Assembly (NCBI RefSeq): GCF_002261215.1
Contig: NZ_NEVS01000004.1
Location: 4,030,001 to 4,094,000 of the forward strand
Origin: Bordetella genomosp. 11
Lineage (GTDB): Bacteria; Pseudomonadota; Gammaproteobacteria; Burkholderiales; Burkholderiaceae_B
Reading direction: 5' to 3'
DNA: 64,000 nt
Position numbers and translations under genes: made by a program. Shown in pieces: positions 1,040 to 59,686 of the stretch. The notes below the pieces were generated by a model. That model had not been told where the DNA came from and did no database searches. It was given only the letters and a program-made list of their open reading frames with translations. Each line of letters starts with the position of its first letter. Within the stretch, counting starts at the first letter, position 1.

Positions 1040-1465
1040 TCAGCTCGCGGCGCCGGACGGCGCCACCGTGCTCCAGTACACCGTGAGGGTGGCATCGTTG
1101 AAGCCCGATTCCGGCGGAGTGCTGCCGCCGGAAGGATAGTTCTTCTCCGCGCCGATATTCACATACTTGCCGTGGCCCATGGTCTGGGTAGGAATCCAGC
1201 TCAGCTGCATCTGCCCCATCTGGCTGTCGTACATCTGCACCTGCACGCTGCGGGTATCCCCGCTTTTGGCGCCTTGCGCAGGGCGAAGCACACTGCCCTG
1301 GATGCCCCCGGGGGCCACCTCTATCTGCTGCGTTTCCTTCCGGTCGATGATGACCTTGACGGTCCGCTTCCACTTTTCCTCGTTATGGACGGAGATGTAC
1401 AGCGGCCTGTCCGCCGGCACGGTGAAATCGCATTCTTTGCCTGGGTTGCTGTTGCTCATTGCCAT
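1040..1465 (-). CDS. Stand-alone LecB-like lectin domain protein
   Basis: 141 residues with no signal peptide. It is clearly paralogous to the C-terminal domains of the two proteins encoded at 2969-4069 and 5126-6190: it shares the CDFTVP start, the NEEKWKRTVKV strand, DSQMGQMQLSW, and the loop NIGAEKNYPSGG...FNDATLTVYW. The pattern resembles the LecB/PA-IIL lectin family (IPxxTxF near the start, a GSExG...DYNDxxVxxxW loop near the end that binds calcium and sugar in LecB). Here the loop has an insertion and only part of the calcium ligands (E, N, D) remain. It lacks the Pro-rich linker and the N-terminal domain. It is the last gene of the minus-strand cassette, 231 bp after the glycosyltransferase. 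Sugar binding is an inference. Confidence 0.6.
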   Translation of the reverse strand: MAMSNSNPGKECDFTVPADRPLYISVHNEEKWKRTVKVIIDRKETQQIEVAPGGIQGSVLRPAQGAKSGDTRSVQVQMYDSQMGQMQLSWIPTQTMGHGKYVNIGAEKNYPSGGSTPPESGFNDATLTVYWSTVAPSGAAS

Positions 1466-1696
1466 ACCTCACGCTTTGACGGAATGCACGCGCGCTACGG
1501 TGATCAGGTTGGCGCGCGCAGGTTGACTGGAACTACACCGATGATGCCAGCCTAACGCCGAACCCCTGGGCGCGACCGCGCGGCACCCGTAACTTCGACG
1601 CACAAAACGTCACCGCGCCGGCATTGCCGATCACGTCTCGCGCGCGTGGTCCGGCGAAGGACGATCAAGCCCCGCACAAACGGCCGGGACGGCGGA

Positions 1697-2788
1697 TCAG
1701 GCATCGGACGCGCGGCGCGGCCAGGCGCGCCAAACATCGTCGTCCTGCGTCGCATCGCCCCGGGGCGGCAAGCGTCCGTCTAGGGTGGCTTCGTGTACCA
1801 GGCGCCGCGCGAAGCATATGCCCGCGTACCGCTCGTAATCGGCAAGGCTGCGGACAGCACCCAGCCCATAGGGGCCAAAATCGATGTCCTCCGCAGGCGT
1901 TCCGTCTATGCCCAAGAGACGCCGCACGCGCAGGCGTGCGCTGTCGTTCCGCTCTGCCCAGGCGCACTCGACCTCGCCCTTGGCTTTAGCCTCTTCCGTA
2001 TGGTCCTGCCAGATGGTCACACGGCCTTCGCACCCATACTGGTGCCAGGAAACCAGGCGATGCGGCGCATAGAAATCATAGCCGCGCGTGTAGGCGCGCG
2101 CCGCGATGGAGATCTCTTCGCCGTAGAAAAACAGCTTGGGATCATGCCGCACCTCCCGCGCGAACGCGCCGTCCGCGAACGCGAAGTGCGCGCTGTAGAA
2201 AGCGACGGGGATGGGACGCGCATGCTCGGATTCGGCGACGTACCTGCCGGAAAGCAGGAGGATGCCGTCGTAGTCGAACTCGCAGAACGTCAATACCGCG
2301 GGAAGCGCTACCCTGCTGTCGGGGTCATTCCGTGCGTCGAAAGCCGGCAGGTAGGTCGTCAACACGGGCTTGGGACTTTCCGTCCGCAGGGATTCCAGCA
2401 TCTCGATCAATATGGCGTCCCAGCGAGGAACGAAGCGATGATGCGAATCCAGCTGCAATGTATATTCTTCGCCGCGGTAGCGTTGCTGGATCAGGTGGCG
2501 CGCCCAGCAGGCGCCTTGCGATTGCAGCTGCGGCACATCGATGAGTTCGATGATGGCGCCTGCGCGCCCCAGCCGGTGTACGGGATGTTCCCCGCCGGCG
2601 TCGATACCGGCACCGACAAATCCGCTGGCGAAGAACGCATCCAGGGTTTCCTCCCTGGCATGCTGCCAGCAGACCACGACACGTAACGTGCCGGGTTGCG
2701 CCGCTTGCTCGATCAAGTCTGCCAGGGTGGGTATCAATTGCGGATCGCGATAGCTCGCGATCTGCACGAAGACCCGCTGCGCGCTCAC
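1697..2788 (-). CDS. Glycosyltransferase, Skp1 hydroxyproline GlcNAc-transferase-like family
   Basis: 363 residues from the GTG at 2788. The family (Pfam GlcNAc, PF11397) includes the Dictyostelium cytoplasmic enzyme that adds GlcNAc to hydroxyproline of Skp1. Visible hallmarks: N-terminal VFVQIASYRDPQLIPTLADL, CWQ at about 40-42, LQLDSHHRF (about 111-119, metal/nucleotide site), FFYGEEISIAARAYTRGYD (about 220-238) and LVSWHQY (about 245-251). No signal peptide or membrane segment, so it should act in the cytoplasm. The start is chosen because the GTG overlaps a relict prolyl-hydroxylase stop as GTGA; the longer ATG frame to 2827 only reads through the relict hydroxylase end. The gene follows lectin 1 and fits as the sugar transferase acting after the hydroxylase at 4317-5063. 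The donor sugar is not known from sequence. Confidence 0.85.
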   Translation of the reverse strand: MSAQRVFVQIASYRDPQLIPTLADLIEQAAQPGTLRVVVCWQHAREETLDAFFASGFVGAGIDAGGEHPVHRLGRAGAIIELIDVPQLQSQGACWARHLIQQRYRGEEYTLQLDSHHRFVPRWDAILIEMLESLRTESPKPVLTTYLPAFDARNDPDSRVALPAVLTFCEFDYDGILLLSGRYVAESEHARPIPVAFYSAHFAFADGAFAREVRHDPKLFFYGEEISIAARAYTRGYDFYAPHRLVSWHQYGCEGRVTIWQDHTEEAKAKGEVECAWAERNDSARLRVRRLLGIDGTPAEDIDFGPYGLGAVRSLADYERYAGICFARRLVHEATLDGRLPPRGDATQDDDVWRAWPRRASDA

Positions 2789-2930
2789 GTGAACGTGCCT
2801 TGCCTCAGCCATTTCGTCGCCAGCCATTTGTCGCCAGCCATTTGTCGCCCGCGATTACCGGCTGGCCGCCACGCACGTTCTTGCGTGTCCCGATGCGGGT
2901 CGGCCATATCGCGCTCGTCCTCCGCAAAGT
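2785..2930 (-). pseudogene. Relict of a prolyl 4-hydroxylase gene
   Basis: This stretch matches both ends of the intact hydroxylase gene (4317-5063) but lacks its middle. From 2785 to about 2909 it aligns with the 3' end of that gene; at about 2910 it jumps to sequence matching the region just before and at its start (5061 onward, CATATCGC...TCCTCCGCAAAGTG). About 640 bp are missing. In addition a 14-bp unit (CGACAAATGGCTGG on the minus strand) is tandemly repeated, which shifts the frame. No functional protein can be made. Its stop codon is still used as the overlap for the GTG start of the glycosyltransferase, showing that hydroxylase and transferase were once adjacent, overlapping genes. 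Confidence 0.85.
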
Positions 2931-2960
2931 GCAGGCCGTAGCCACAAGGCTACGGCCTGC
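2931..2960 (-). terminator. Perfect hairpin after lectin 1
   Basis: A 13-bp perfect inverted repeat, GCAGGCCGTAGCC / GGCTACGGCCTGC with a 4-nt loop, lies a few bases after the stop of lectin-like protein 1. The following transcript sequence has only a short T run (CTTTG), so it may attenuate rather than fully terminate, or protect the lectin mRNA end. The same hairpin occurs after lectin-like protein 2 (5089-5116). Confidence 0.6.
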
Positions 2961-2968
2961 TCAGCTAC

Positions 2969-4069
2969 TTAGCCGGCCGAGCCGGCCGGTTGGCTTACCA
3001 CCCAGGACACCGTGACCACCACGTCGTTGAAGCGGGTTTCCGGCGCGCCATTCCCACCCGACGGATAATCCTTTTCCGCGCCGATGTGGATGGATTCGCT
3101 GTCGCCGACGACCGCGGGCGGTTGCCAGCCCAACATCATCTGGCCCGACTGGCTATCCTCGATCTCGACGCAGATCATGCTCTTGCCTTTCTGGGCGGCG
3201 GTCCCCGGTCCCGAGACAAAGGTCTTAGATCCCGCGCTGTGGCCGACCGGGACGGGAATAGTGGTGGCCTTCCCGTCGATGTACACCGTTACCGTCCGGG
3301 TCCAATTTTCCTCGTTGGTGAATGCAACGGTGAAGTTCGTATGGGCCGGAATATCGAAGCAGCACTTCTTCCCGGTCGTCACCCCGGAGGAAGGAGACGG
3401 CGAGTGCGACGGTGCGGGCGAGGGAGAATGTGACGGTGCCGGCGAAGGAGAATGCGACGGCGAGGGAGAATGTGATGACGAAGCCCGTTGGACGTCGGCG
3501 ATTTTCCACCAAGTGTCGCCGCCTACGCCTGCATTCAAGTGTTGCCGCGTGTAGGCCATATACATCCCGCCCTGGATAACACCGGCGGCGCTCCCTTGGA
3601 TACACAGGAACTCGCCAATGGCATCTTGCGTCCCCAGAGGGACCGGCGTTCCCGCAAGACTGCTGGATAAAGCAACAAAGGCATTCGCCGTGGGGATGAC
3701 CTGCGGTGTGTATCCAAGTGGGATACTCGGCCCGGACACACCGTAGATGACCCATGTCAAGCTCGAATCTTTCGTCGGGCCGGCGCCGGAATGTGCTTGT
3801 GCGTTGGATTCCCTCACGCACTGAAGCTCCTTCCCGGCAACGGATTTCGGCGCGACGCCCACGATCCTGACGGTGTCTCCCACCATCACGTTGCCTGTTT
3901 TCTTGCCGTCCCAGGATTCGAATTTCCAGGTTGCCACCGGACTTGCGGTCGTTACCGCGTTCCCCGTCCCATCGAACGCAAGATATCCGCCGGCAGGTGG
4001 CAGATTGGTAGCCGGCTGATCGCCGAGGCCTTGCAGCTGGAAAGTATCGCCATATTGAAGATCACTCAT
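2969..4069 (-). CDS. Two-domain lectin-like protein 1 with Ser-Pro-Ala-Pro repeat linker
   Basis: 366 residues, no signal peptide or membrane segment. Three parts. Residues 1 to about 195: a beta-rich-looking N-terminal domain (YGDTFQL, GGYLAFDG, ATWKFESWDGKK, VGDTVRIVG), family not recognised; a beta-trefoil is possible. Residues about 197-230: linker of SHSPSPAP octapeptide repeats. Residues about 235-366: a LecB/PA-IIL-like domain beginning CCFDIPAHTNFTVAF and ending with IGAEKDYPSGG...RFNDVVVTVSWVV, followed by a short tail ending in Gly. The linker resembles plant hydroxyproline-rich glycoprotein motifs and is the most likely substrate for the neighbouring prolyl hydroxylase and glycosyltransferase. 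The start has a good Shine-Dalgarno, GGGAG six bases before ATG. The modification and sugar binding are inferred. Confidence 0.7.
   Translation of the reverse strand: MSDLQYGDTFQLQGLGDQPATNLPPAGGYLAFDGTGNAVTTASPVATWKFESWDGKKTGNVMVGDTVRIVGVAPKSVAGKELQCVRESNAQAHSGAGPTKDSSLTWVIYGVSGPSIPLGYTPQVIPTANAFVALSSSLAGTPVPLGTQDAIGEFLCIQGSAAGVIQGGMYMAYTRQHLNAGVGGDTWWKIADVQRASSSHSPSPSHSPSPAPSHSPSPAPSHSPSPSSGVTTGKKCCFDIPAHTNFTVAFTNEENWTRTVTVYIDGKATTIPVPVGHSAGSKTFVSGPGTAAQKGKSMICVEIEDSQSGQMMLGWQPPAVVGDSESIHIGAEKDYPSGGNGAPETRFNDVVVTVSWVVSQPAGSAG
3408..3482 (-). repeat. 24-bp tandem repeats coding the Pro-Ser linker of lectin 1
   Basis: About three imperfect 24-bp units (plus strand GGCGAGTGCGACGGTGCGGGCGAG and variants) encode the octapeptide P-S-H-S-P-S-P-A on the minus strand. 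One unit is shortened, giving SPSPSHSPSP at its N-terminal end. The units differ by silent changes, so the peptide is kept while the DNA drifts. Such arrays can change copy number by slippage, which would alter linker length in frame. Confidence 0.8.
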
Positions 4070-4259
4070 CTTGAGCTCCCGGTCCTGCCATGCAAAATTC
4101 CAAAACCGGAATCGCCTTGGCAGATGAATTTGAGTTGCCCGCAGGAAGATGCGCTTCCCCGGATGCCATTACGTTCATACGCGGAAGAAGCCGCCGCGTG
4201 ACGCTTGCCGCGCCGGCTTAGCCCCTGTCGCGGCCATTGTGCGCACGATGCCGCGCGGC

Positions 4260-4366
4260 ACCTCCGGCATTCGCATCCGCGCCGCCATCCGATCTGCACG
4301 AAGACCCGATGCGCGCTCACGTGAATGTGCCCTGCCTCAGCCATTTCGTCGCCAGCCATTTTTCGC
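4260..4366 (-). pseudogene. Relict 5' end of a second glycosyltransferase gene
   Basis: From about 4366 down to about 4293 the sequence is nearly identical to the start region of the glycosyltransferase gene: it encodes VSAHRVFVQI in the same frame relative to the hydroxylase stop, again through a GTGA overlap. After VFVQI the frame runs into unrelated sequence (GWRRGCECRRC), and the roughly 1 kb rest of the transferase gene is missing. It marks the place where the second cassette copy lost its transferase. The remaining sequence up to the lectin 1 start (4070-4290) holds no gene that I can support. Confidence 0.8.
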
Positions 4367-5063
4367 CGGCGATTACCGGCTGGCCGCCATGCAAGGTCTT
4401 GGTGTCCCGATGCGGGTCGGCGTAGCTGAAGAACAATGCCTGCCCACGCTGTGCGCCCACGGTCACGCCGATCTCTGGAAAAGTGGTACCGCCACCGCAC
4501 GTTGGCTCGTTCAGATACATCAATACACTGGCGAGACGTTGCCCGCCGCGCTGGAGTATCACCGGCGTCCCCCGGGCATCCGGCGGGAAGAAATCGAAAT
4601 GAGGCCGGTATTCCGCGCCGACGCGGTAATGAAGCACCTGCATGCCTTCCCCGCGTTCCACGGGCCAGTTCACCATATGTGCGATGCGCGTCTCGATACG
4701 GCGTACGAGTTCGTTTTCGCCCGGATGGAAGAACATCCCGTCGCTGGTCCGCACGTTGGCGAGCACACTGTCGCCACCGGTTTCGTTATCGACCACGGTG
4801 GATTGCCGCAACCGGGGCCGTGCCGCCTCAATCAGGGCATCGCACTCTTCGTCGGAAAGAAAATCCGCGAACAGAACGATGCGGGGATCGCGCATGGCAA
4901 ACAACACGCGGACTTCACGATCCCCCACGTGGATACGCTGGGGGGAAAGGCCTAGCGCCGGCTCCGGACAACCAGACCACGCCATGGCACCGATACCGTC
5001 CATCACATCGCCACGCACTTCGGCAGCCGCCTCAGCGTTCACCGCGTCCATTCCCCCTCCCAT
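4317..5063 (-). CDS. Prolyl 4-hydroxylase (Fe(II)/2-oxoglutarate dioxygenase)
   Basis: 248 residues. The C-terminal two thirds is a P4Hc dioxygenase domain. The iron triad is visible as H155-F-D157 (EYRPHFDFF) and H225 (TKTLHGG); K235, ten residues after the distal His (GEKWLATKW), is the 2-oxoglutarate-binding lysine position of this family. RTSDGMFFHPGENELV and LHYRVGAEY are typical of the peptidyl-proline branch rather than of AlkB or JBP relatives. There is no signal peptide. Start: the frame is open to a GTG at 5102, but that lies inside the hairpin after lectin 2; I prefer ATG 5063, with GGAGG about 11 bases upstream, or ATG 5051. The gene lies between two lectin genes with Pro-Ser linkers, the probable substrate. 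Some bacterial relatives act on EF-Tu, so substrate identity is inferred. Confidence 0.88.
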   Translation of the reverse strand: MGGGMDAVNAEAAAEVRGDVMDGIGAMAWSGCPEPALGLSPQRIHVGDREVRVLFAMRDPRIVLFADFLSDEECDALIEAARPRLRQSTVVDNETGGDSVLANVRTSDGMFFHPGENELVRRIETRIAHMVNWPVERGEGMQVLHYRVGAEYRPHFDFFPPDARGTPVILQRGGQRLASVLMYLNEPTCGGGTTFPEIGVTVGAQRGQALFFSYADPHRDTKTLHGGQPVIAGEKWLATKWLRQGTFT

Positions 5064-5088
5064 ATCGCACTTGTCCTCCGCAAAGTGC

Positions 5089-5116
5089 CAGGCCGTAGCC
5101 ACGAGGCTACGGCCTG
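5089..5116 (-). terminator. Hairpin between lectin 2 and prolyl hydroxylase
   Basis: A 12-bp inverted repeat (CAGGCCGTAGCC / GGCTACGGCCTG, 4-nt loop) begins about ten bases after the lectin 2 stop and ends about 25 bases before the preferred hydroxylase start. It is the counterpart of the hairpin at 2931-2960. Placed inside the operon, it would lower hydroxylase expression relative to its presumed lectin substrate. Confidence 0.6.
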
Positions 5117-5125
5117 CTCAGCTAC

Positions 5126-6190
5126 TTAGCCGGCCGAGCCGGCCGGTTGGCTTACCACCCAGGACACCGTGACCACCACGTCGTTGAAGCGGGTTTCCGG
5201 CGCGCCATTGCCACCCGACGGATAATCCTTTTCCGCGCCGATGTGAACGGACTTGCTGTCGCCCGCGGTCACGGGCGGTTGCCAGCCCAACAGCATCTGC
5301 CCCGACTGGCTGTCCTCGACCTCGATGCAGACCGTGCTCTTGCCTTTATGGGCGGCGGTCCCCGCGCCTGAGACAAAGCCCTTCGACCCCGTGCTATGGC
5401 CGACCGGCACTGGGATATTGCTGGCCTTCCCGTCGATGTACACCGTTACCGTCCTGGTCCACTTTTCCTCGTTGGTGAAGGCAACAGTGAAGTCTGTATG
5501 GGCCGGAATATCGAAGCAGCACTTCTTCCCGGTCGTTAACGCGGGGGAAGGAGACGGCGAGTGCGATGGCGCGGGCGACGGGGAATGCGACGGCGCGGGC
5601 GACGGGGAATGCGACGGCGCGGCCGCTTTAATGACCTGCCACCATGTGTTCCCGCCCTGAGCGGTATCCAGCGGATAGCGCGTGTAAACCTTCATGATGA
5701 CATTCACGCCGTCATAGGTCGTACCGGGCGGTACCATGCCGGTCGGGTACCACACATTGAGGAAATTGCCGGTGACCGCACCGACCCCCTCCCATCCCAC
5801 TTTGTTGCACAAGACGATATAGGATTCTTCCGGGACGGTACTACCCGGCACAGAACACATGGCGACATACCATATCGTGTCGTCCTCCTTCGACGATAGA
5901 TTGGCGCCGGAAGCCTGTGTGTTGACTGCTGCCCCGCACTTCAGCGCAAGCGCGGACTTGTAAGGAGGATTCGGGCCCGCACTCACAATCCTGACCGCGT
6001 CCCCGACCGACACACCGCCCTTTTTGCCGTCCGCGGATTCCAGTTTCCAGAATGCCAGTGGCGTTGCGGTCGTGATCGCCATCTCACTTCCGTCCAACGC
6101 AAGGTAGCCCCCGTTGGGTGGCGCGGCAAGCGAGACCTCATTGCCGGCACACGCCAACTGGAACGTCTCGCCGTATTGAAGATCAGCCAT
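5126..6190 (-). CDS. Two-domain lectin-like protein 2 with Ser-Pro-Ala-Pro repeat linker
   Basis: 354 residues, paralogue of the protein at 2969-4069 and the first gene of the cassette. Its C-terminal LecB-like domain (about 224-354) and the DNA coding for it are almost identical to the paralogue, while the N-terminal domain (1 to about 188) is strongly diverged: it keeps only YGETFQL, GGYLALDG, FWKLESADGKK, VGDAVRIV and a final NTWWQVI. The linker (about 191-217) has three P-S-H-S-P-S-P-A units. No signal peptide is seen, as is usual for LecB-type lectins. The start ATG follows GGGAG by six bases. The pattern suggests two ligand specificities on a common lectin base; ligand and localisation are unknown. 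Confidence 0.7.
   Translation of the reverse strand: MADLQYGETFQLACAGNEVSLAAPPNGGYLALDGSEMAITTATPLAFWKLESADGKKGGVSVGDAVRIVSAGPNPPYKSALALKCGAAVNTQASGANLSSKEDDTIWYVAMCSVPGSTVPEESYIVLCNKVGWEGVGAVTGNFLNVWYPTGMVPPGTTYDGVNVIMKVYTRYPLDTAQGGNTWWQVIKAAAPSHSPSPAPSHSPSPAPSHSPSPSPALTTGKKCCFDIPAHTDFTVAFTNEEKWTRTVTVYIDGKASNIPVPVGHSTGSKGFVSGAGTAAHKGKSTVCIEVEDSQSGQMLLGWQPPVTAGDSKSVHIGAEKDYPSGGNGAPETRFNDVVVTVSWVVSQPAGSAG
5551..5624 (-). repeat. 24-bp tandem repeats coding the Pro-Ser linker of lectin 2
   Basis: Three consecutive units of about 24 bp (plus strand GGCGACGGGGAATGCGACGGCGCG and variants) encode repeated P-S-H-S-P-S-P-A on the minus strand. Two of the units are identical in DNA, which points to recent unit duplication. 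Confidence 0.8.
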
Positions 6191-6566: not shown

Positions 6567-9500
6567 CTATGCGGCGCGGGCGGTGCCTCCGGCATTCGCA
6601 TGCGCGCCGCCCTCCAGGCGCTGCAACAACGCCGACCGCCGCGCGCGCGCCTTATCGATCGCCGCGTCCTTGATATGGCCATAGCCGCGGATCTCTTCGG
6701 GCAGGCTGGCGAGCGCCACGGCGATATCCAGGTTGCCGCGGCCAAGACGAGGCAATAGCGCCGCGATGGTGTCGCGATACTCGGCCACCAGCGCCCGTTC
6801 CGTACGCCGCTCCTTGGTGTATCCAAAGGGATCGAGCGGCGTGCCGCGCAGGAAGCGCGCCTTGCTCAGGATGCCGAAGGCTTTCATCATCCACGGCCCG
6901 AAGGAACGTTTGACCAAATGGCCTTGGGCATCGCGGCGTGAAAAGGCCGGCGGCGCCAGATGGAAGTTCAGCTTCCAGTCGCCTTCGAATTGTTCGGCGA
7001 TGCGGCGCAGGAAAACCCCATCGCTGTACAGGCGGGCCACCTCGTATTCGTCCTTGTACGCCATTAGCTTGAAGTAGTTTCGCGCGACGGCCTGGGCCAG
7101 GCGCGTGGTCCCGGTGGCGGCCAGTTCGGCCGTCGCGACCTGCTCGACGAAATCGGCATAGCGGCGCGCGTAGGTCTTGTTCTGGTAGTCGGCCAGGAAA
7201 CGCTCGCGCCGGCCGACCAGCGAAGCAAGATCCGCTGGCCAGCGTCGAGCCTGGCCGCCATCGCCGCCGGCCAGGGCGGCGCCGCGGCGGATCTCGATAA
7301 TTTCCGCGCCCGTGGCGCCGGCATCGTCGGCCGGGTCGCCGGCCGGCGCGATCAAGCGCTGGACCGCTGCCAGGTCCTGGGCGGCACGCCTGCCCCACGC
7401 GAAGGCCGCCTTATTGTTTTCGACCTGCTGGCCATTCAGCTCTATCGCGCGCAATAGCGTCTCGCGCGCCAGCGGAATCCAGCCCTTTTGGTAGGCATAG
7501 CCCATCATCAAGGGATTGGCGTAGATGGCGTCGCCCAGCAGACCCACGGCCAGTTCGGCGGCATCGACCGTATCCACCTGCCCCGGCATGCATGCGCCAT
7601 CGATATCGCGCTGCAGGCTATCGGACGGCAGGCGCCAGTCCGGATTGGAAATGAAAGCGGCGGTGGGCGCCACATCGCTATTGAGCAGCAGCCGCGTGCG
7701 TTCCGGCCGCATGCGCGCGAGCGCGTCGCGGCTGCTGGCCACGACAAGGTCTCCGGCCAGCACCAGGTCGGCCTCGCCCATCGCCACGCGCGTGTTAAGC
7801 AGATGACCCGGCGACTGGGCCAGGATGACGTGCGAATGCACCGCGCCGCCTTTCTGCGCCAGGCCCGCCATGTCCAGCACCGAACAGCCCTTGCCCTCCA
7901 GATGCGCGGCCATGCCCAGCAACTGCCCGATGGTCACCACGCCCGTACCGCCCACGCCCGCGATGAACACGCCATACGGGCGATCGAGAGCCGGTTGCTC
8001 CGGCTCCGGCAAAGCCGCGTCGATGGCTTCCTGGGCGCCTACGCCCTTGGGCTTGCGCAGCTTGCCGCCTTCCACCGTCACGAAACTGGGGCAGAAGCCG
8101 TTCAGGCACGAGAAATCCTTGTTGCAGCTGGACTGGTTGATCGTGCGCTTGCGGCCGAATTCGGTTTCCAGGGGTTCCACCGACAGGCAATTGGACTTGT
8201 CCGAACAATCGCCGCAGCCTTCGCACACGCGTTCGTTGATGACCACACGCCGCGCCGGATCGGGATAGGCGTTGTGCTTGCGCCGCCGGCGCTTTTCCGT
8301 CGCGCAGGTCTGGTCGTAGATCAGGATGGACACGCCGGGATAGTCGCGCAGTTCGCGCTGGACGCTATCCAATTCGTTGCGGTGCAGGACCGGCACGCCC
8401 GGCGCCATGCCGCTCATGTTCTTGTACTTCTCCGGCTCGTCCGTCACCACGACGATTTTCTCGATGCCCTCGGCGGCCAGCTGGCGCGTGATCATCGGTA
8501 CGCTGATCGGCCCGTCCACCGGCTGCCCCCCCGTCATGGCGACCGCATCGTTGAACAGGATCTTGTACGTGATGGGTGTCTTGGCGGCGACCGCGGCGCG
8601 GATGGCAAGCAGGCCGGAATGATAGTAGGTGCCATCGCCCAGATTGGCGAACACGTGTTTTTCATCCGTGAACGGCGCATGGCCCACCCACGGCACGCCC
8701 TCGCCGCCCATGTGGGTGAAGAGATCCGTGTTGCGGTCCATCCAGCGAACCATGTAATGGCAACCGATGCCGGCCATGCCGCGCGAACCCTCCGGCAGGC
8801 GCGTGGAGGTGTTATGCGGGCAGCCAGAACAGAACCAGGGCTTGCGCTCGGCCACCACGCGCGGCCGCGACAGGGCGCGTTCGCGCGCATCGATGAAGGC
8901 CAGGCGGGCCTCGATGCCGGCGCGCACGTCGGCGGGCAGCTCGAACTTCAACAGGCGCGTGCCGATCGCTTTCGCCACGATGGCCGGCGAAAACTCGTAG
9001 TGGGCCGGCAACAGCCAGTTGCCTTGCGGCACCGCCCATTCGCCGCCGTCCTTATCGTCGAACTTGCCGACCACGCGCGGAATCTTCTTGCCGCTGCCGA
9101 TCCAGCCGAACAGTTCTTCTTTCAGCTGGTACTCCAGCACCTGGCGCTTTTCCTCGACCACCAGGATCTCGTCCAGGCCTTCGGCGAAGCGCTGCATGCC
9201 GGTGGCTTCCAGCGGCCACACCATGCCGACCTTGAACAGGCGCACGCCGATGCGGCGGCACGTCTCGTCGTCCAGCCCCAGGTCGGCCAGCGCCTGGCGC
9301 GTATCCAGGTATGCCTTGCCCGATGTCATGATGCCGAAACGGGCCGATTCCTGCGGCACATGCCAGAGTTCGCGGTTCAGGCCGTTGGCCCGGGCATAGG
9401 CAAGCGCCGCATACAGCTTGAAGTCCAGCAGGCGCGCTTCCTGTTCCAGCGGCGTATCGGGCAGCCGGATATTCAGGCCGTCCGCCGGCATCTGGAAGTC

Positions 9501-10205
9501 GTGCGGTAACACGATGCCCACGCGGTCCGCGTCGACTTCGACCGACGCCGAAACCTCGACGATGTCGGTAATGCACTTCATGCCCACCCAGACGCCCGCG
9601 TAGCGGCTCATGGCCCAGCCATGCAGGCCGTAATCCAGGACTTCCTGCACCGTGGAGGGGAACAGCACCGGGATCAGGCAGGCCTTGAGCAAATGATCGC
9701 TTTGGTGCGGCAGCGTGGACGACTTCGCCGGATGATCGTCGCCGGCCACCACCAGCACGCCGCCGTGGCGCGAGGTACCTGCGGCGTTGGCATGCTTGAA
9801 TACATCGCCGCAACGGTCCACGCCGGGGCCCTTGCCGTACCACATGCCGAATACGCCGTCGTAGCGCGCCCCCGGATACAGGTTTACCTGCTGCGATCCC
9901 CATACGGCGGTGGCGGCAAGGTCTTCGTTCACGCCCGGCTGGAATACCACGTGGTGGGCCTTCAGGTATTTGGCCGCCTTCCACATGTTCAGGTCCACGC
10001 CCCCCAGGGGCGAGCCGCGATAGCCGGAAATAAACCCCGCCGTGTTCAGGCCGGCGCGTGCATCGCGCGTGCGCTGCATCATGGGCAGACGCACCAGGGC
10101 GTGGATGCCGCTCATCCAGGCACGGCCGGTTTCGAGGGAGTATTTGTCGTCCAGCTGGACCGAATCGAGCGCGGCGCGCTGCGCCGGCGTAAGGGGGGCA
10201 TTCAT
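6567..10205 (-). CDS. Indolepyruvate ferredoxin oxidoreductase, fused IorA-IorB type
   Basis: A 1212-residue single-chain enzyme of the kind found in beta- and alphaproteobacteria. It oxidatively decarboxylates aryl (or related) 2-oxo acids to acyl-CoA using thiamine diphosphate and Fe-S clusters. Order of parts: N-terminal pyrimidine-binding domain (GFISGYRGSPLGG), TPP domain (CSGCPHNTST; GDGTYYHSG), a ferredoxin-like cluster region (CEGCGDCSDKSNC and later CNKDFSCLNGFC), the gamma/IorB domain (GVGGTGVVTIGQLLG, GLAQKGGAVHSH) and a long C-terminal extension typical of these fusions. The frame is open to 10448, but MNAPLTPAQRAALDSVQLDDKY starts at ATG 10205, preceded by GGAG seven bases away. 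It is divergent from mutY. Role in aromatic amino-acid catabolism is inferred from the family. Confidence 0.88.
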   Translation of the reverse strand: MNAPLTPAQRAALDSVQLDDKYSLETGRAWMSGIHALVRLPMMQRTRDARAGLNTAGFISGYRGSPLGGVDLNMWKAAKYLKAHHVVFQPGVNEDLAATAVWGSQQVNLYPGARYDGVFGMWYGKGPGVDRCGDVFKHANAAGTSRHGGVLVVAGDDHPAKSSTLPHQSDHLLKACLIPVLFPSTVQEVLDYGLHGWAMSRYAGVWVGMKCITDIVEVSASVEVDADRVGIVLPHDFQMPADGLNIRLPDTPLEQEARLLDFKLYAALAYARANGLNRELWHVPQESARFGIMTSGKAYLDTRQALADLGLDDETCRRIGVRLFKVGMVWPLEATGMQRFAEGLDEILVVEEKRQVLEYQLKEELFGWIGSGKKIPRVVGKFDDKDGGEWAVPQGNWLLPAHYEFSPAIVAKAIGTRLLKFELPADVRAGIEARLAFIDARERALSRPRVVAERKPWFCSGCPHNTSTRLPEGSRGMAGIGCHYMVRWMDRNTDLFTHMGGEGVPWVGHAPFTDEKHVFANLGDGTYYHSGLLAIRAAVAAKTPITYKILFNDAVAMTGGQPVDGPISVPMITRQLAAEGIEKIVVVTDEPEKYKNMSGMAPGVPVLHRNELDSVQRELRDYPGVSILIYDQTCATEKRRRRKHNAYPDPARRVVINERVCEGCGDCSDKSNCLSVEPLETEFGRKRTINQSSCNKDFSCLNGFCPSFVTVEGGKLRKPKGVGAQEAIDAALPEPEQPALDRPYGVFIAGVGGTGVVTIGQLLGMAAHLEGKGCSVLDMAGLAQKGGAVHSHVILAQSPGHLLNTRVAMGEADLVLAGDLVVASSRDALARMRPERTRLLLNSDVAPTAAFISNPDWRLPSDSLQRDIDGACMPGQVDTVDAAELAVGLLGDAIYANPLMMGYAYQKGWIPLARETLLRAIELNGQQVENNKAAFAWGRRAAQDLAAVQRLIAPAGDPADDAGATGAEIIEIRRGAALAGGDGGQARRWPADLASLVGRRERFLADYQNKTYARRYADFVEQVATAELAATGTTRLAQAVARNYFKLMAYKDEYEVARLYSDGVFLRRIAEQFEGDWKLNFHLAPPAFSRRDAQGHLVKRSFGPWMMKAFGILSKARFLRGTPLDPFGYTKERRTERALVAEYRDTIAALLPRLGRGNLDIAVALASLPEEIRGYGHIKDAAIDKARARRSALLQRLEGGAHANAGGTARAA

Positions 10206-10377
10206 GCAGTCTCCGTTTGTCTTGGATCGCTCGTGCCGGGCGGGGGATCGCCTCTTGTGAAGGCCTACCGGCCGGCATAAACAGTCAACCAGGCTTTTCC
10301 ATCCTGCCTGTACGGGTGTTTTACTCCTGGGCATGCGGCCGCGCAATCGGTGTTCCCGAGGATGCCATAATCGCGCC

Positions 10378-11469
10378 ATGGACTTCGCAACCCGAATCGC
10401 CACCTGGCAGCAGCGCCACGGGCGCCACGACCTGCCATGGCAGAACACCCGGGATCCCTACCGCATCTGGCTGTCGGAAATCATGCTGCAGCAGACCCAG
10501 GTGAGCACAGTCATCCCGTATTACGAGCGCTTTCTGGAACGCTTCCCGGACCTGGCGGCCCTGGCCGCCGCCGACCAGGAAGCCGTCATGCCCTATTGGG
10601 CCGGCCTGGGCTACTACGCGCGCGCGCGCAACCTGCATCGCTGCGCGCAGGACATCGTGCAGCATTGGGGCGGGTCATTTCCGCCGGACGCCTCGTCCAT
10701 CGCCACGCTGCCGGGCATAGGCCGCTCCACCGCCGCCGCCATCGCTGCCTTTGCCTATGGCGAGCGATCGCCCATCATGGATGGCAACGTCAAGCGCGTG
10801 TTTGCGCGCCATTTCGGCGTCGCCGGGGACCCGGCGCGGCGCGAAACCGAAATCCGCCTCTGGGCCCTGGCCGACGCGCAACTGGCCGACGGTGCCGGAC
10901 ACGGCATCGACATGGCGGCCTATACCCAGGGCCTGATGGACCTGGGCGCCACGATATGCACGCGCGGCAAGCCGCTGTGCGACCGCTGTCCCGTGCGCGA
11001 AACCTGTGTCGCGCGGCGCGACGGCCGCCAGGCGGAACTCCCCACACCCAAGGCGCGCAAGGTAGCGCCGGAGCGGCGCACGGGTATGCTGGTGCTGGGA
11101 CACGAGGGCCGGATACTGCTGGAACAGCGCCCCTCGCCGGGTATCTGGGGGGGGTTGTGGAGCCTGCCGGAATTCGACGCCGGCCTGGACGCGGCGGCGG
11201 CTTGCGCCGCCCTGGGCGCCTCGCCGGGCACGGTTTTCGAACTGGCGGCGTTCTCGCATACGTTCACGCACTTTCGCCTGCACGTGCGCCCCTGGTACGT
11301 CGCCGTGGCGCAAGCGCGCATCGAACAAGAGCGGCCATGGCAATGGGTGGACGCGGAGGCGTGCGCCCGCATCGCCCTGCCCGCGCCGGTGCGCAAGCTC
11401 GTGGACGGCCTGTTCGCGGCCGGGTTGCCGGAAGCACTGATGGCGCCGGCCGCCGCGACCGGTCCCTAG
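10378..11469 (+). CDS. mutY: A/G-specific adenine DNA glycosylase MutY
   Basis: 363 residues. MutY removes adenine mispaired with 8-oxoguanine. Motifs: catalytic Glu in RIWLSEIMLQQTQV, the helix-hairpin-helix LPGIGRSTAAAIAAFAYG, catalytic Asp region GHGIDMAAYTQGLMDLGATIC and the [4Fe-4S] cluster C-X6-C-X2-C-X5-C (CTRGKPLCDRCPVRETC). The C-terminal third is the NUDIX-like domain that recognises 8-oxoG (MLVLGHEGRILLEQRPSPGIWGGLWSLPEF). The start at 10378 gives the canonical N-terminus. Its stop overlaps the stop of convergent rodA in the palindrome CTAG. Confidence 0.95.
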   Translation: MDFATRIATWQQRHGRHDLPWQNTRDPYRIWLSEIMLQQTQVSTVIPYYERFLERFPDLAALAAADQEAVMPYWAGLGYYARARNLHRCAQDIVQHWGGSFPPDASSIATLPGIGRSTAAAIAAFAYGERSPIMDGNVKRVFARHFGVAGDPARRETEIRLWALADAQLADGAGHGIDMAAYTQGLMDLGATICTRGKPLCDRCPVRETCVARRDGRQAELPTPKARKVAPERRTGMLVLGHEGRILLEQRPSPGIWGGLWSLPEFDAGLDAAAACAALGASPGTVFELAAFSHTFTHFRLHVRPWYVAVAQARIEQERPWQWVDAEACARIALPAPVRKLVDGLFAAGLPEALMAPAAATGP

Positions 11470-55858: not shown

Positions 55859-56764
55859 ATGAGCAAAGAGCAGGAACACGTAGAAGAACACGCCTCACTC
55901 ATCAAGACCCCGAAGCAGTTGATCGTCACGGTGGTTCTGGCCTTTCTAGTGCCGATCATCATCATCCTGATGCTCGTCAATATGGTGGCCTCCTACGGCC
56001 GCAGCGGTGCGGGGTCCAACGCCTTGACACCGGAAGCCATCGACAAGCGCATTGCCCCCGTCGCGGGTTTCGACCTGGTCGATGCCAACGCGCCCAAGGT
56101 CTTTAAGACCGGCGAACAGGTTTTCAGTTCCGTCTGTACGTCCTGCCATACGGCGGGCGTGGCCGGCGCGCCGAAAGTCGGCGACAACGCCGCCTGGGCG
56201 CCCCGCATAAAGGAAGGGCTGGAAACGATGTTCAACATCGCCCTGCACGGCAAGGGCGCCATGCCGCCCAAGGGTGGCAACCCCTCGCTGAGCGACTACG
56301 AAGTCGAACGCGCCGTGGTTTTCATGGCCAATAAGTCGGGCGGCAACTTCAAGGAACCCGAAGCGCCCGCCCAACCCGCCGCGAACCAGGGCCAGGCCGC
56401 CGCACCCGCTCCTGCACCCGCCCCCGCTGTGGCAGCGGCTGCGGCTCCAGCCACGCCGGCCCCCGCTCCTGCCGCACAGGCACAGGCGCCGGCACCGGCG
56501 CCCGCCCAGCAGGCGGCGGTGAACCCCGCGGGCGAAAAGCTCTATAAGACAACCTGCTTCGCCTGCCATGGCACCGGGGTAGCAGGCGCGCCGAAGTTCG
56601 GTAGCAAGGCCGACTGGGACAAATACATCCAGACGGGCCTCGACACCATGGTCAAGACGGCGATCACGGGCAAGGGCGCGATGCCGCCCAAGGGCGGCGC
56701 GGCCAACGCGTCGGACGCCGATATCCGGGCCGCCGTGGAATACATGGTGCAGGCAGCCAAGTAA
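55859..56764 (+). CDS. Membrane-anchored diheme cytochrome c5-type protein
   Basis: 301 residues. One N-terminal transmembrane anchor (about 21-44, IVTVVLAFLVPIIIILMLVNMVASY). Two class I cytochrome c domains of the c5 kind: first heme CTSCH (about 94-98) with Met ligand in GKGAMPPKGG (about 137), second CFACH (about 237-241) with a second GKGAMPPKGG. The domains are internal duplicates joined by an Ala-Pro linker of about 55 residues (APAPAPAPAVAAAAAPATPAPAP). It acts in the periplasmic electron-transfer chain; related proteins feed terminal oxidases or denitrification enzymes. Followed by a strong terminator. Confidence 0.92.
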   Translation: MSKEQEHVEEHASLIKTPKQLIVTVVLAFLVPIIIILMLVNMVASYGRSGAGSNALTPEAIDKRIAPVAGFDLVDANAPKVFKTGEQVFSSVCTSCHTAGVAGAPKVGDNAAWAPRIKEGLETMFNIALHGKGAMPPKGGNPSLSDYEVERAVVFMANKSGGNFKEPEAPAQPAANQGQAAAPAPAPAPAVAAAAAPATPAPAPAAQAQAPAPAPAQQAAVNPAGEKLYKTTCFACHGTGVAGAPKFGSKADWDKYIQTGLDTMVKTAITGKGAMPPKGGAANASDADIRAAVEYMVQAAK

Positions 56765-59038: not shown

Positions 59039-59686
59039 TCAGCGGGCGGGTGCCGCGGTACCCGACGCGGGGGCGGACCGGTCAGATGCCGGAGGCACCG
59101 CCGGCGTGCCGCTGCCCGAGGCAGCCGGCGCATCGCCGCGCACGCGGGCCGCGATCTCGGTCGCCGTTTGCGCGGTATCCACGCCGAAGGCCAGCACGCC
59201 GCGATTCAACGGTTCGGCGATGCGCGGCGCGGCGACCAATTGGCCATTGATGACCAGCACCAGCAGCTTGCCGACGTTCTGCGAACTGACCTGGGCGAGC
59301 TTGCGCGCGCCTTCCGGGGTGAAGCGCAGGCCGACGAAATTCTGCCCCTGGCGATCGACCAGGGCCGCCGCTTCGGTCAGGTCGGCGCGCGTGAGCACGG
59401 GCTGCGGCTGCACGTAAACCGTGGCATCGCTGAGCTTGACCTCCATGAGATTGGGCCCGGCCTCCGTTTGCGCGATATAGAAGCCGACCGACGACGCCAC
59501 GGGGGCGGTCGAGGGCGCGGGTGTGCCGGGCGCGGTACCGGGCGGCGTGCCGCCCGCTGGCGTCGTGGTTCCACCGGATTGCGTGGACGCGGTCCCACCG
59601 GCCTTGTTGCCAGGCGTCTGGCAACCCGCCAGAAGGACCGTAGCCATCAATACCACGGGTGCGATCGTACGGAATTTGATGTGCAT
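59039..59686 (-). CDS. Lipoprotein with a SecD-head-like domain
   Basis: 215 residues. Signal peptide with lipobox LLAGCQTPGN, then a low-complexity Gly/Thr/Pro region (about 27-65), then a domain that resembles the first periplasmic subdomain of SecD: VGFYIAQTEAGPNLMEVKLSDATVYVQPQPVLTRADLTEAAALVDRQGQNFVGLRFTPEGARKLAQVSSQNVGKLLVLVINGQLVAAPRI. The Pro/Ala/Ser tail (SGSGTPAVPPASDRSAP) is disordered. Function is unknown; SecD itself uses this region in late protein export. Confidence 0.75.
   Translation of the reverse strand: MHIKFRTIAPVVLMATVLLAGCQTPGNKAGGTASTQSGGTTTPAGGTPPGTAPGTPAPSTAPVASSVGFYIAQTEAGPNLMEVKLSDATVYVQPQPVLTRADLTEAAALVDRQGQNFVGLRFTPEGARKLAQVSSQNVGKLLVLVINGQLVAAPRIAEPLNRGVLAFGVDTAQTATEIAARVRGDAPAASGSGTPAVPPASDRSAPASGTAAPAR

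Follow-up and report, generated by a model that had tools for sequence, protein, structure and literature searches.

The window, meaning the whole 64,000-nt stretch of DNA analysed here, comes from Bordetella genomosp. 11 (contig NZ_NEVS01000004.1). ORF calling in the window found five minus-strand ORFs, lec1, P4H, lec2, GT, and lecS, which form a cassette within 1040..6190 between cheD and an oxidoreductase gene. Thus, the enzyme and linker-protein genes lie together on one strand, as a preliminary description of this DNA had stated. The features of the cassette are listed below.

5126..6190, minus strand: lec1, 354 aa, with an N-domain without a Pfam family, a PSHSPSPA linker, and a PA-IIL-fold C-domain (ORF, Pfam profile, linker script)
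5540..5626, minus strand: X-Pro linker of lec1, residues 189-217, a 24-bp DNA repeat (linker script and DNA repeat analysis)
5089..5116, no strand: inverted repeat between lec1 and P4H, with a similar sequence downstream of lec2 (self-comparison)
4317..5102, minus strand: P4H, 2OG-Fe(II) dioxygenase, PF13640, probable start ATG 5063 (Pfam, PDB matches, self-comparison)
4290..4320, minus strand: 5′-terminal remnant of a second GT gene, which overlaps the stop codon of P4H (GTGA); in the self-comparison, 4290-4421 and 2758-2904 share 84% identity
4252..4290, minus strand: 3′-terminal remnant of the oxidoreductase gene that lies upstream, which marks the joint of the duplication; 87% identical to 6577-6615
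2969..4069, minus strand: lec2, 366 aa, architecture as in lec1 (ORF, Pfam)
3371..3484, minus strand: linker of lec2 (X-Pro/Ser type), spanning residues 196-233, with 24-bp and 18-bp repeats in the DNA (linker script and DNA repeat analysis)
2785..2904, minus strand: 3′-terminal remnant of a second P4H gene, with a stop codon that overlaps the start of GT and with the joint of an internal deletion near 2904; in the self-comparison, 5060-5622 and 2904-3465 share 90% identity, and 2758-2904 matches 4290-4421
1697..2827, minus strand: GT, PF11397 (GT60-type), 376 aa, probable start GTG 2788 (363 aa) (Pfam, alignment, self-comparison)
1040..1465, minus strand: lecS, 141 aa, a PA-IIL-like domain on its own, scoring below the Pfam cut-off and lacking a linker (ORF, Pfam)

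Judged from these self-matches, the cassette is a tandem duplication of a lec-P4H-GT unit, and the two units show complementary decay. One P4H and one GT were retained after the duplication, while the 5′ end of the second GT and the 3′ end of the second P4H persist as remnants.

The P4H ORF encodes 261 aa from a GTG codon or 248 aa from the ATG at 5063. It matches PF13640 (1.4e-13), PDB entries 3itq/5hv0 (about 2e-43), which are Bacillus P4Hs, and 2jig/3gze (about 5e-42), an algal P4H. Its HxD...H iron triad (H155, D157, H225) and 2OG lysine (K235), numbered from ATG 5063, are aligned with those of 3itq/5hv0; the profile and the PDB alignments thus bear out the earlier assignment of a prolyl 4-hydroxylase with these four residues. 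P4H is a prolyl-4-hydroxylase-family protein for which peptidyl-proline 4-hydroxylation is predicted. It resembles the Bacillus P4H in sequence and active-site residues. To my knowledge, no glycosyltransferase partner is known for bacterial P4Hs such as the Bacillus P4H and the Pseudomonas PPHD.

The GT lies well inside PF11397 (1e-75, 255.8 bits; curated cut-off 21), so that the refuting condition named in the preliminary description, a transferase outside this family, did not occur. Its DSH motif (D127-S128-H129 in the 376-aa numbering) is invariant in all 15 aligned GT rows. No significant PDB relative was found by sequence in the solved-structure searches. GT is predicted to belong to the GT60-type polypeptide GlcNAc-transferase family, with UDP-GlcNAc as the donor and Hyp or Thr/Ser as the acceptor. 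According to PMC8724618 and PMC3769586, both Thr and Hyp are acceptors of GlcNAc for transferases of GT60, the class of the Skp1 enzyme. By eye, the bacterial enzymes have no signal sequence.

The C-domains of lec1 (24.7 bits) and lec2 (23.9 bits) match the PA-IIL/LecB family PF07472 above the cut-off of 21, while lecS, with 14.6 bits, does not. An 11-row profile of the lec1 type (A3) matches LecB 4ut5 at 2.7e-16. The SEDGxDxDYNDG-type acidic loop is the Ca2+/sugar loop of PA-IIL lectins. It is replaced in the Bordetella-type proteins, where GAEKDYPSGGNGAPETRFND-type loops fill its position and the final ND alone is kept. Thus, the earlier term "lectin" holds for the fold, while the calcium/sugar loop is largely lost. 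Besides this loop, the Bordetella-type proteins differ from PA-IIL/LecB and BC2L lectins, which they resemble by profile in the C-domain, in the X-Pro linker and in the N-domains.

The linkers, as cut by script, are 29 residues long in lec1 (10 P, 10 S) and 38 residues long in lec2 (10 P, 16 S), so that two proteins with Pro-Ser repeat linkers exist as described earlier. ORF calling gave 50 ORFs over the 64 kb, and a 24-residue small/polar stretch with at least 9 P occurs in lec1 and lec2 alone; ORF 55859-56764 has 8 P by this measure, and ORF 59039-59686 has 7 P. The X-Pro linker is constant across these LecB-fold proteins and the N-domains vary. Several linkers are DNA repeats able to grow by slippage, and different repeats yield one X-Pro pattern. 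The protein search with full-length lec1 gave just three matches, one of them the window protein itself; low-complexity words from the linker had probably taken up the list of candidates. With the C-domain as the query there were two matches, again including its own. No relative was found for lec1 among the viral sequences or for lec2 among the plasmids. P0122 is the closest full-length relative of lec1 among the matches found.

Do the three components occur together elsewhere? In the neighbourhood search, two further genomes, those of Bordetella sp. H567 and B. dolosa, showed P4H, PF11397, and X-Pro-linker proteins together. The H567 order is a hemopexin-domain linker protein, P4H, GT, and lecS, and the P4H stop and the GT start overlap (ATGA). 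The hemopexin-domain protein carries a Pro/Ser linker, and its C-domain shares 60% identity with that of lec1. The match of this protein to PF07472 (17.4 bits) is below the cut-off. The enzyme genes are open in the window and in H567, with about 82-83% identity between them. H567 also has a second P4H, a linker-protein gene broken in frame, and a further linker protein 0.39 Mb away (109-residue linker, 55 P). In B. dolosa, P4H and GT are adjacent (39 bp apart), and a PA-IIL (LecB-fold) protein with a PSPTPNPT linker lies about 5 kb from P4H, with a second such linker protein on a different contig. The lectin genes are separated from the enzyme pair by ORFs that, by eye, resemble a histidine kinase and a response regulator. 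As for other genomes, G113, of the same genus, gave no PF11397 match and no P4H match, and the linker of its PA-IIL-like protein is made of Gly/Asn/Asp with no Pro. No X-Pro linker was found in the 25 PA-IIL ORFs that came from 14 of 20 regions sampled in other Burkholderia genomes. In three of the six genomes in the H567 genus set (G414, G442, and G465) a P4H was matched, and none of these three appears in the list of PF11397 matches.

The GTs of the window, H567, B. sputigena (P0003), P0004-P0006, and B. dolosa cluster in the tree with 99/99 support, and long-branch plasmid and Luteibacter rows also fall inside this group. In the P4H tree, the B. dolosa sequence and the two from Bordetella do not group, so the two P4H-GT pairs may be separate assemblies. 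On a single origin of the pair the two trees disagree: the GTs group, and the P4Hs do not.

PF11397 genes are also found in T6SS loci, phages, and plasmids. Among the matches listed, 30 VgrG loci were sampled, with 13 GT-side rows; left out were L221 and L222, second pieces of L206 and L205, and L203, which has a tail and lies on a contig apart from the GT of its genome. Pro/Ser/Thr-rich tails were found in 10/10 VgrGs near a GT and in 1/17 other VgrGs, the sole exception (L210) being from a genome that carries a GT elsewhere, on a different contig. The tail repeats (PT, PPPSEE, PPTE, PDET, PEPST, PSDEQ, and similar) all contain Ser or Thr. Unlike the tss-fimbrial-GT-RHS-PAAR-VgrG loci, the window cassette has no T6SS genes flanking its GT. 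In phages, Pro/Ser/Thr linkers occur in 21 of 80 GT loci, the best 80 of 532, versus 1 of 80 random loci, a control sampled by 15-mer that may represent other virus types (GC median 0.42 vs 0.35). Another viral control, queried with a carbamoyltransferase, gave three loci and was unused. Tracts were found in 7/108 ORFs adjacent to a viral GT versus 12/508 other ORFs (p = 0.058, weak alone; 57 representatives of the 78 loci with a GT called, out of 80 fetched). The viral tract test itself demands Ser/Thr and is thus not independent evidence for a Ser/Thr acceptor. For genome loci no tract rate is given, since the ORF caller missed the GT in 12/47.

A P4H lies in the flanks of 2/44 PF11397 genome loci (one adjacent, one convergent) and 0/80 viral loci, and by these counts the P4H-GT couple was rejected as a conserved pair of the whole family. 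No P4H was seen near the GT in the VgrG loci or in a Klebsiella plasmid stretch. Since the PF11397 loci with Pro/Ser/Thr tracts are mostly without a flanking P4H, Ser/Thr may be the acceptor there. Thus, of the "Hyp-glycosyltransferase" of the preliminary description, the family stands, while the Hyp acceptor is weakened because GT60 also acts on Thr and most PF11397 loci have no flanking P4H.

It is likely, with a probability of roughly 60%, that the LecB-fold proteins encoded nearby are modified in the cytoplasm on their X-Pro linkers, first by P4H and then by GT. P4H would hydroxylate linker prolines to hydroxyproline in the cytoplasm, and GT would next add a sugar, probably GlcNAc, to the hydroxylated linker; alternatively, the sugar may sit on Ser/Thr beside Hyp. 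The modified linker may form a stiff, protease-resistant stalk between the two domains of an exported adhesin-like protein. The linkers are putative substrates of both enzymes. The pathway proposed earlier is thus kept in part: the enzyme families, the gene linkage with X-Pro linker proteins in the window, H567, and B. dolosa, and the H567 stop/start overlap favour it, whereas the Hyp acceptor and the lectin function are weakened. Since VgrG tails, phage linkers, and the cassettes all lie beside PF11397 genes, linker glycosylation as such appears well supported by association, and a Hyp acceptor would be specific to the P4H-coupled branch.

It is possible, though on balance unlikely, that GT is a mucin-type enzyme that puts its sugar directly on Ser/Thr of the X-Pro linkers, while P4H separately stiffens the linker and no Hyp-linked glycan is formed. 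The Ser or Thr in every VgrG tail and the absence of P4H from the VgrG, viral, and Klebsiella plasmid GT loci fit this explanation, and T. cruzi enzymes of the GT60 kind act on Thr in the accessible text of PMC3769586. However, the pair of P4H and GT60 enzyme works on Hyp in protists, as the available part of PMC8724618 describes. Moreover, P4H and GT overlap at stop and start in H567 and lie side by side in B. dolosa, and the duplicated window unit retained exactly one of each.

It is quite improbable that P4H and GT target another cytoplasmic protein and stand beside the linker proteins by coincidence. A Pseudomonas P4H reportedly modifies EF-Tu, and P4Hs do exist without cassette context (G414, G442, G465, and the second P4H of H567), but coincidence fits poorly with the joint occurrence of all three components in H567 and B. 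dolosa, the Pro-free linker of G113, and the Pro/Ser/Thr tracts next to PF11397 genes in T6SS loci and phages. It is hardly credible that the linkers are just spacer repeats that slippage expanded in a decaying island and that carry no modification. Such an origin would suit the 24-bp repeats, the frame-broken linker-protein gene of H567, and the enzyme remnants in the window; yet the enzyme genes are open and conserved at the identity given above, P4H and GT were retained in a complementary manner, and distinct repeats give the same X-Pro pattern.

As for known systems, the SP-type repeats recall the plant/algal Hyp-rich glycoproteins (extensin/AGP), and the window P4H matches 2jig/3gze; the plant/algal proteins are made by other glycosyltransferase families in the secretory pathway. 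I know of no P4H partner for the mucin-type GT60 transferases of T. cruzi and Dictyostelium. A bacterial Hyp-glycosylation system was not found among the listed titles and abstract openings of a literature search that covered a minor part of the subscription journals. In the accessible text of PMC8724618, P4H and a GT60 enzyme modify Skp1 in protists, and a dual-function P4H/GlcNAc-transferase from a plant pathogen is cited. The Skp1 pathway pairs a cytoplasmic P4H with a GT60-type transferase, as is predicted for the cassette. It differs in that one Pro is modified, whereas the bacterial cassette has two coupled genes and, as the proposed substrate, a repetitive X-Pro linker with many sites. 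In Pfam, the five cassette proteins include no Skp1 family match and, unlike the Skp1 pathway, no later sugar transferase. The mucin-type pp-alpha-GlcNAc transferases (GT60) of T. cruzi and Dictyostelium share the transferase class and mucin-like acceptors (PMC3769586, PMC8724618) but act on Thr in the Golgi, while the bacterial enzymes have no signal sequence by eye.

Hyp-linked stalk decoration would likely be new for bacteria. If true, hydroxyproline-linked glycosylation exists in bacteria, with a known enzyme pair and a new repetitive substrate, and the pathway could be rebuilt in E. coli. It would also offer a function for the large bacterial and phage PF11397 family (4748 proteins at E <= 0.001 among 7996 scored), a testable reason why VgrG tails are rich in proline, and, for the oxygen-sensing Skp1 chemistry of protists, a candidate relative in bacteria. 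A broader proposal, tentative and somewhat short of even odds, is that bacterial and phage PF11397 enzymes perform a general cytoplasmic O-glycosylation of the Pro/Ser/Thr stalks and tails of exported, injected, and virion proteins (LecB-fold adhesins, VgrG tails, and phage structural linkers). The P4H-coupled branch would then make true Hyp-linked glycans, and the glycosylation of Skp1 and mucins in protists would have its bacterial equivalent, and perhaps its origin, in this system.

Bacterial and phage PF11397 proteins are now named only "GlcNAc-transferase family protein". P0006 (Trinickia sp. EG282A) has best matches of 46-50% in three genomes of its genus set. The GT P0004 begins with VAGDEVAAAGCFH, which may be the shadow frame of a P4H C-terminus.

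It was found that five ORFs, all on the minus strand, occupy the space between cheD and an oxidoreductase gene in the window.

362-1006: cheD (PF03975 match)
1040-1465, minus strand: lecS, a PA-IIL (LecB)-fold C-domain alone
1697-2827, minus strand: GT, PF11397 (GT60-type) polypeptide-GlcNAc-transferase family
2969-4069, minus strand: lec2, linker protein
4317-5102, minus strand: P4H, prolyl-4-hydroxylase family
5126-6190, minus strand: lec1, linker protein
6567-10448: oxidoreductase gene of 1293 codons, reading as indolepyruvate ferredoxin oxidoreductase

The last name is that carried by plasmid records matching at the DNA level, and the Bordetella sp. H567 protein is 95% identical. The lec1 and lec2 proteins have a common architecture: an N-domain that matches no Pfam family, then a PSHSPSPA linker, then a C-domain of the PA-IIL fold. 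The families proposed for the two enzymes in the preliminary description were borne out by Pfam, and for P4H also by PDB, and the active-site residues named for P4H (H155, D157, H225, and K235) are correct. The description of the linker proteins as lectins stands in part. An 11-row profile of linker proteins and lone domains matched LecB structures (4ut5 at 2.7e-16), so that the profile likeness to PA-IIL holds; however, the calcium loop is replaced. The loop of canonical PA-IIL members holds two calcium ions, while lec1, lec2, and lecS retain solely its final Asn-Asp. Judged from these residues, "LecB-fold protein" would be a safer name than "lectin" for the window proteins. Elsewhere in the window, the ORF at 55859-56764 is the sole further called ORF reaching 8 Pro in a 24-residue small/polar stretch.

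Is the combination of P4H, GT, and a linker protein present in other genomes? It was found in H567 and in Burkholderia dolosa. In H567, P4H and GT are about 82-83% and lecS 81% identical to those of the window. The N-domain of the H567 linker protein beside P4H is a hemopexin domain (49.1 bits against a cut-off of 21.3), and 40 of the 75 residues of the Pro/Ser linker are Pro. The C-domain is 60% identical to that of lec1, yet falls below the PA-IIL cut-off (17.4 of 21). A second H567 linker protein, encoded at a distance of 0.39 Mb, lies above that cut-off; Pro makes up 55 of the 109 residues in its linker. H567 also has a lec2-type gene with a broken frame (L083:13101-14560). In B. dolosa, P4H (44%) adjoins GT (58%), and about 5 kb from P4H lies the gene for a 325-residue protein that combines a PSPTPNPT linker with a PA-IIL domain. 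A second linker protein of this type, on a different contig, retains more of the PA-IIL loop. In the metagenome protein P0123, the N-domain is accompanied by a Pro-rich tract, but there is no PA-IIL match. Since the end domains vary while the X-Pro linker is constant, these comparisons point to the linker as the probable shared substrate. In the GT tree, the P4H-linked GTs group at 99/99, long-branch rows included, while the P4H tree did not resolve the placement of the B. dolosa P4H. Downstream of GT in B. dolosa, at a distance of about 3 kb, is an ORF resembling an acyl-homoserine-lactone synthase by eye (L011:14341-14982), and quorum control of this cassette is possible.

The linker was then compared with PA-IIL proteins of other genomes. 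No X-Pro linker was found in 25 PA-IIL ORFs from other Burkholderia genomes (14 ORF-yielding of 20 regions), a count to be read as a sample because the choice of regions was guided in part by open frames that were large or unusual. The maximum per 24 residues was 5 Pro in these ORFs, whereas the six linker proteins measured reach 9 to 16. The G113 genome, from the genus set of H567, has neither a PF11397 nor a P4H match; its PA-IIL-like protein (E 2.8e-7 with the A4 model; 15.3 bits, below the Pfam cut-off) has GGNGSDGGNGDNGGDGGIGN, without Pro, at the linker position. The Bordetella-type domain model matched in 2 of 200 family genomes, H567 and G113. PF11397 is rare (8/300 order genomes, 7 of them above the cut-off; 9/65 in the Burkholderia set; 6/121 in the family), and PA-IIL was found in 44/65 of the Burkholderia set versus 2/399 order genomes.

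PF11397 genes also occur in type VI secretion (T6SS) clusters. On a B. ambifaria plasmid, the gene lies within such a cluster (tssEFG, ImpA-type, fimbrial protein, GT, RHS, PAAR, and VgrG), and Pfam scans of the GT neighbors in L016, L003, L001, and L002 are consistent with this arrangement. The GT-side VgrG ORFs end in C-terminal Pro-rich repeats whose letters vary (PT, PPPSEE, PPTE, PDET, PEPST, and PSDEQ), with Ser or Thr in every tail displayed. Among the matches listed, the tail is present in 10/10 VgrGs at most 6 kb from a GT versus 1/17 others (Fisher p 1.3e-6), although the ten are not independent events because they are close relatives of each other (63-100% to the query). The nearest non-GT VgrG among these matches (T. 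terrae L211, 64%) has neither a tail nor a GT on its contig. Across L001-L020 (e.g., L114:7019-15062), the PF11397 genes lie in T6SS clusters and close to VgrGs whose Pro/Ser/Thr repeat tails vary, and a fimbrial-protein gene is directly upstream of the GT in 3/3 loci checked (L016, L003, and L114).

In viruses, a Pro/Ser/Thr tract ORF was found in 21/80 GT loci (the best 80 of 532) versus 1/80 random loci, or in 30/953 versus 1/882 ORFs counted singly. After near-duplicates among the best 80 were dropped, the ratio was 13/57 versus 1/50 random loci of at least 8 kb (p 0.0012); restricted to ORFs adjacent to GT, the enrichment has a p of 0.058. In the viral loci L158, L168, L187, L189, and L191, large proteins with TP-rich linkers are encoded next to the PF11397 gene, and L187:6243-7643 matches a crAss-like muzzle C-domain. 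On a Klebsiella aerogenes plasmid, a beta/gamma-crystallin protein with a PTPTPSPT linker (L115:4738-7089) is encoded just upstream of a PF11397 gene. No P4H was found in the best 80 viral GT loci or in the Klebsiella plasmid stretch. Two further arrangements were observed: in Polynucleobacter (L044:7370-11172), a PF11397 gene is convergent with a 734-codon ORF in which P4H and TPR domains occur together with a GT9 match below the threshold, and on a Methylomagnum plasmid (L116:1-6645), a Cys-every-fifth RiPP gene set has a P4H downstream.

These associations favor a reading in which bacterial and phage PF11397 enzymes modify Pro/Ser/Thr-rich tracts, without fixing which residue is the acceptor. 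In published work, the acceptor of this enzyme class is Thr in T. cruzi mucins (PMC3769586) and hydroxyproline (Hyp) in Skp1 (PMC8724618); the latter review also cites a dual-function P4H/GlcNAc-transferase from a plant pathogen. The PF11397 loci without P4H elsewhere make Ser/Thr a plausible alternative acceptor, but in Bordetella and B. dolosa a P4H is coupled to the GT, and Hyp would thus be the most economical acceptor there. The linkers are very probably modified by one or both enzymes. For a Hyp-linked sugar on them, as the preliminary description proposed, I estimate a probability of about 0.55 to 0.6. Judging from the N-termini by eye and the protist parallel, both enzymes would act in the cytoplasm.

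How did the cassette arise? In two relatives, G113 and G252, the oxidoreductase gene and cheD are direct neighbors, separated by 110 bp and 29 bp, respectively, while the interval between them measures 5.6 kb in the window and 5.9 kb in H567; in G153, the third region compared, cheD was not found in the fetched region. By sequence comparison, the cassette is an insertion with a duplication. In the window, 2904-3465 copies 5060-5622 (90%), 2758-2904 copies 4290-4421 (84%), and 39 bp from the 3′ end of the oxidoreductase gene (6577-6615) recur at 4252-4290 (87%). I read these repeats as a probable tandem duplication of a unit comprising the oxidoreductase end, lec, P4H, and GT, after which GT would have been lost from copy 1 and most of P4H from copy 2. 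What remains is the pair of linker proteins together with a single intact copy of P4H and of GT. For the window GT, the likeliest start is GTG 2788, which overlaps the stop codon of the P4H remnant. In H567, the order is linker protein, P4H, GT, and lecS; there, the stop codon of P4H overlaps the start codon of GT (ATGA).
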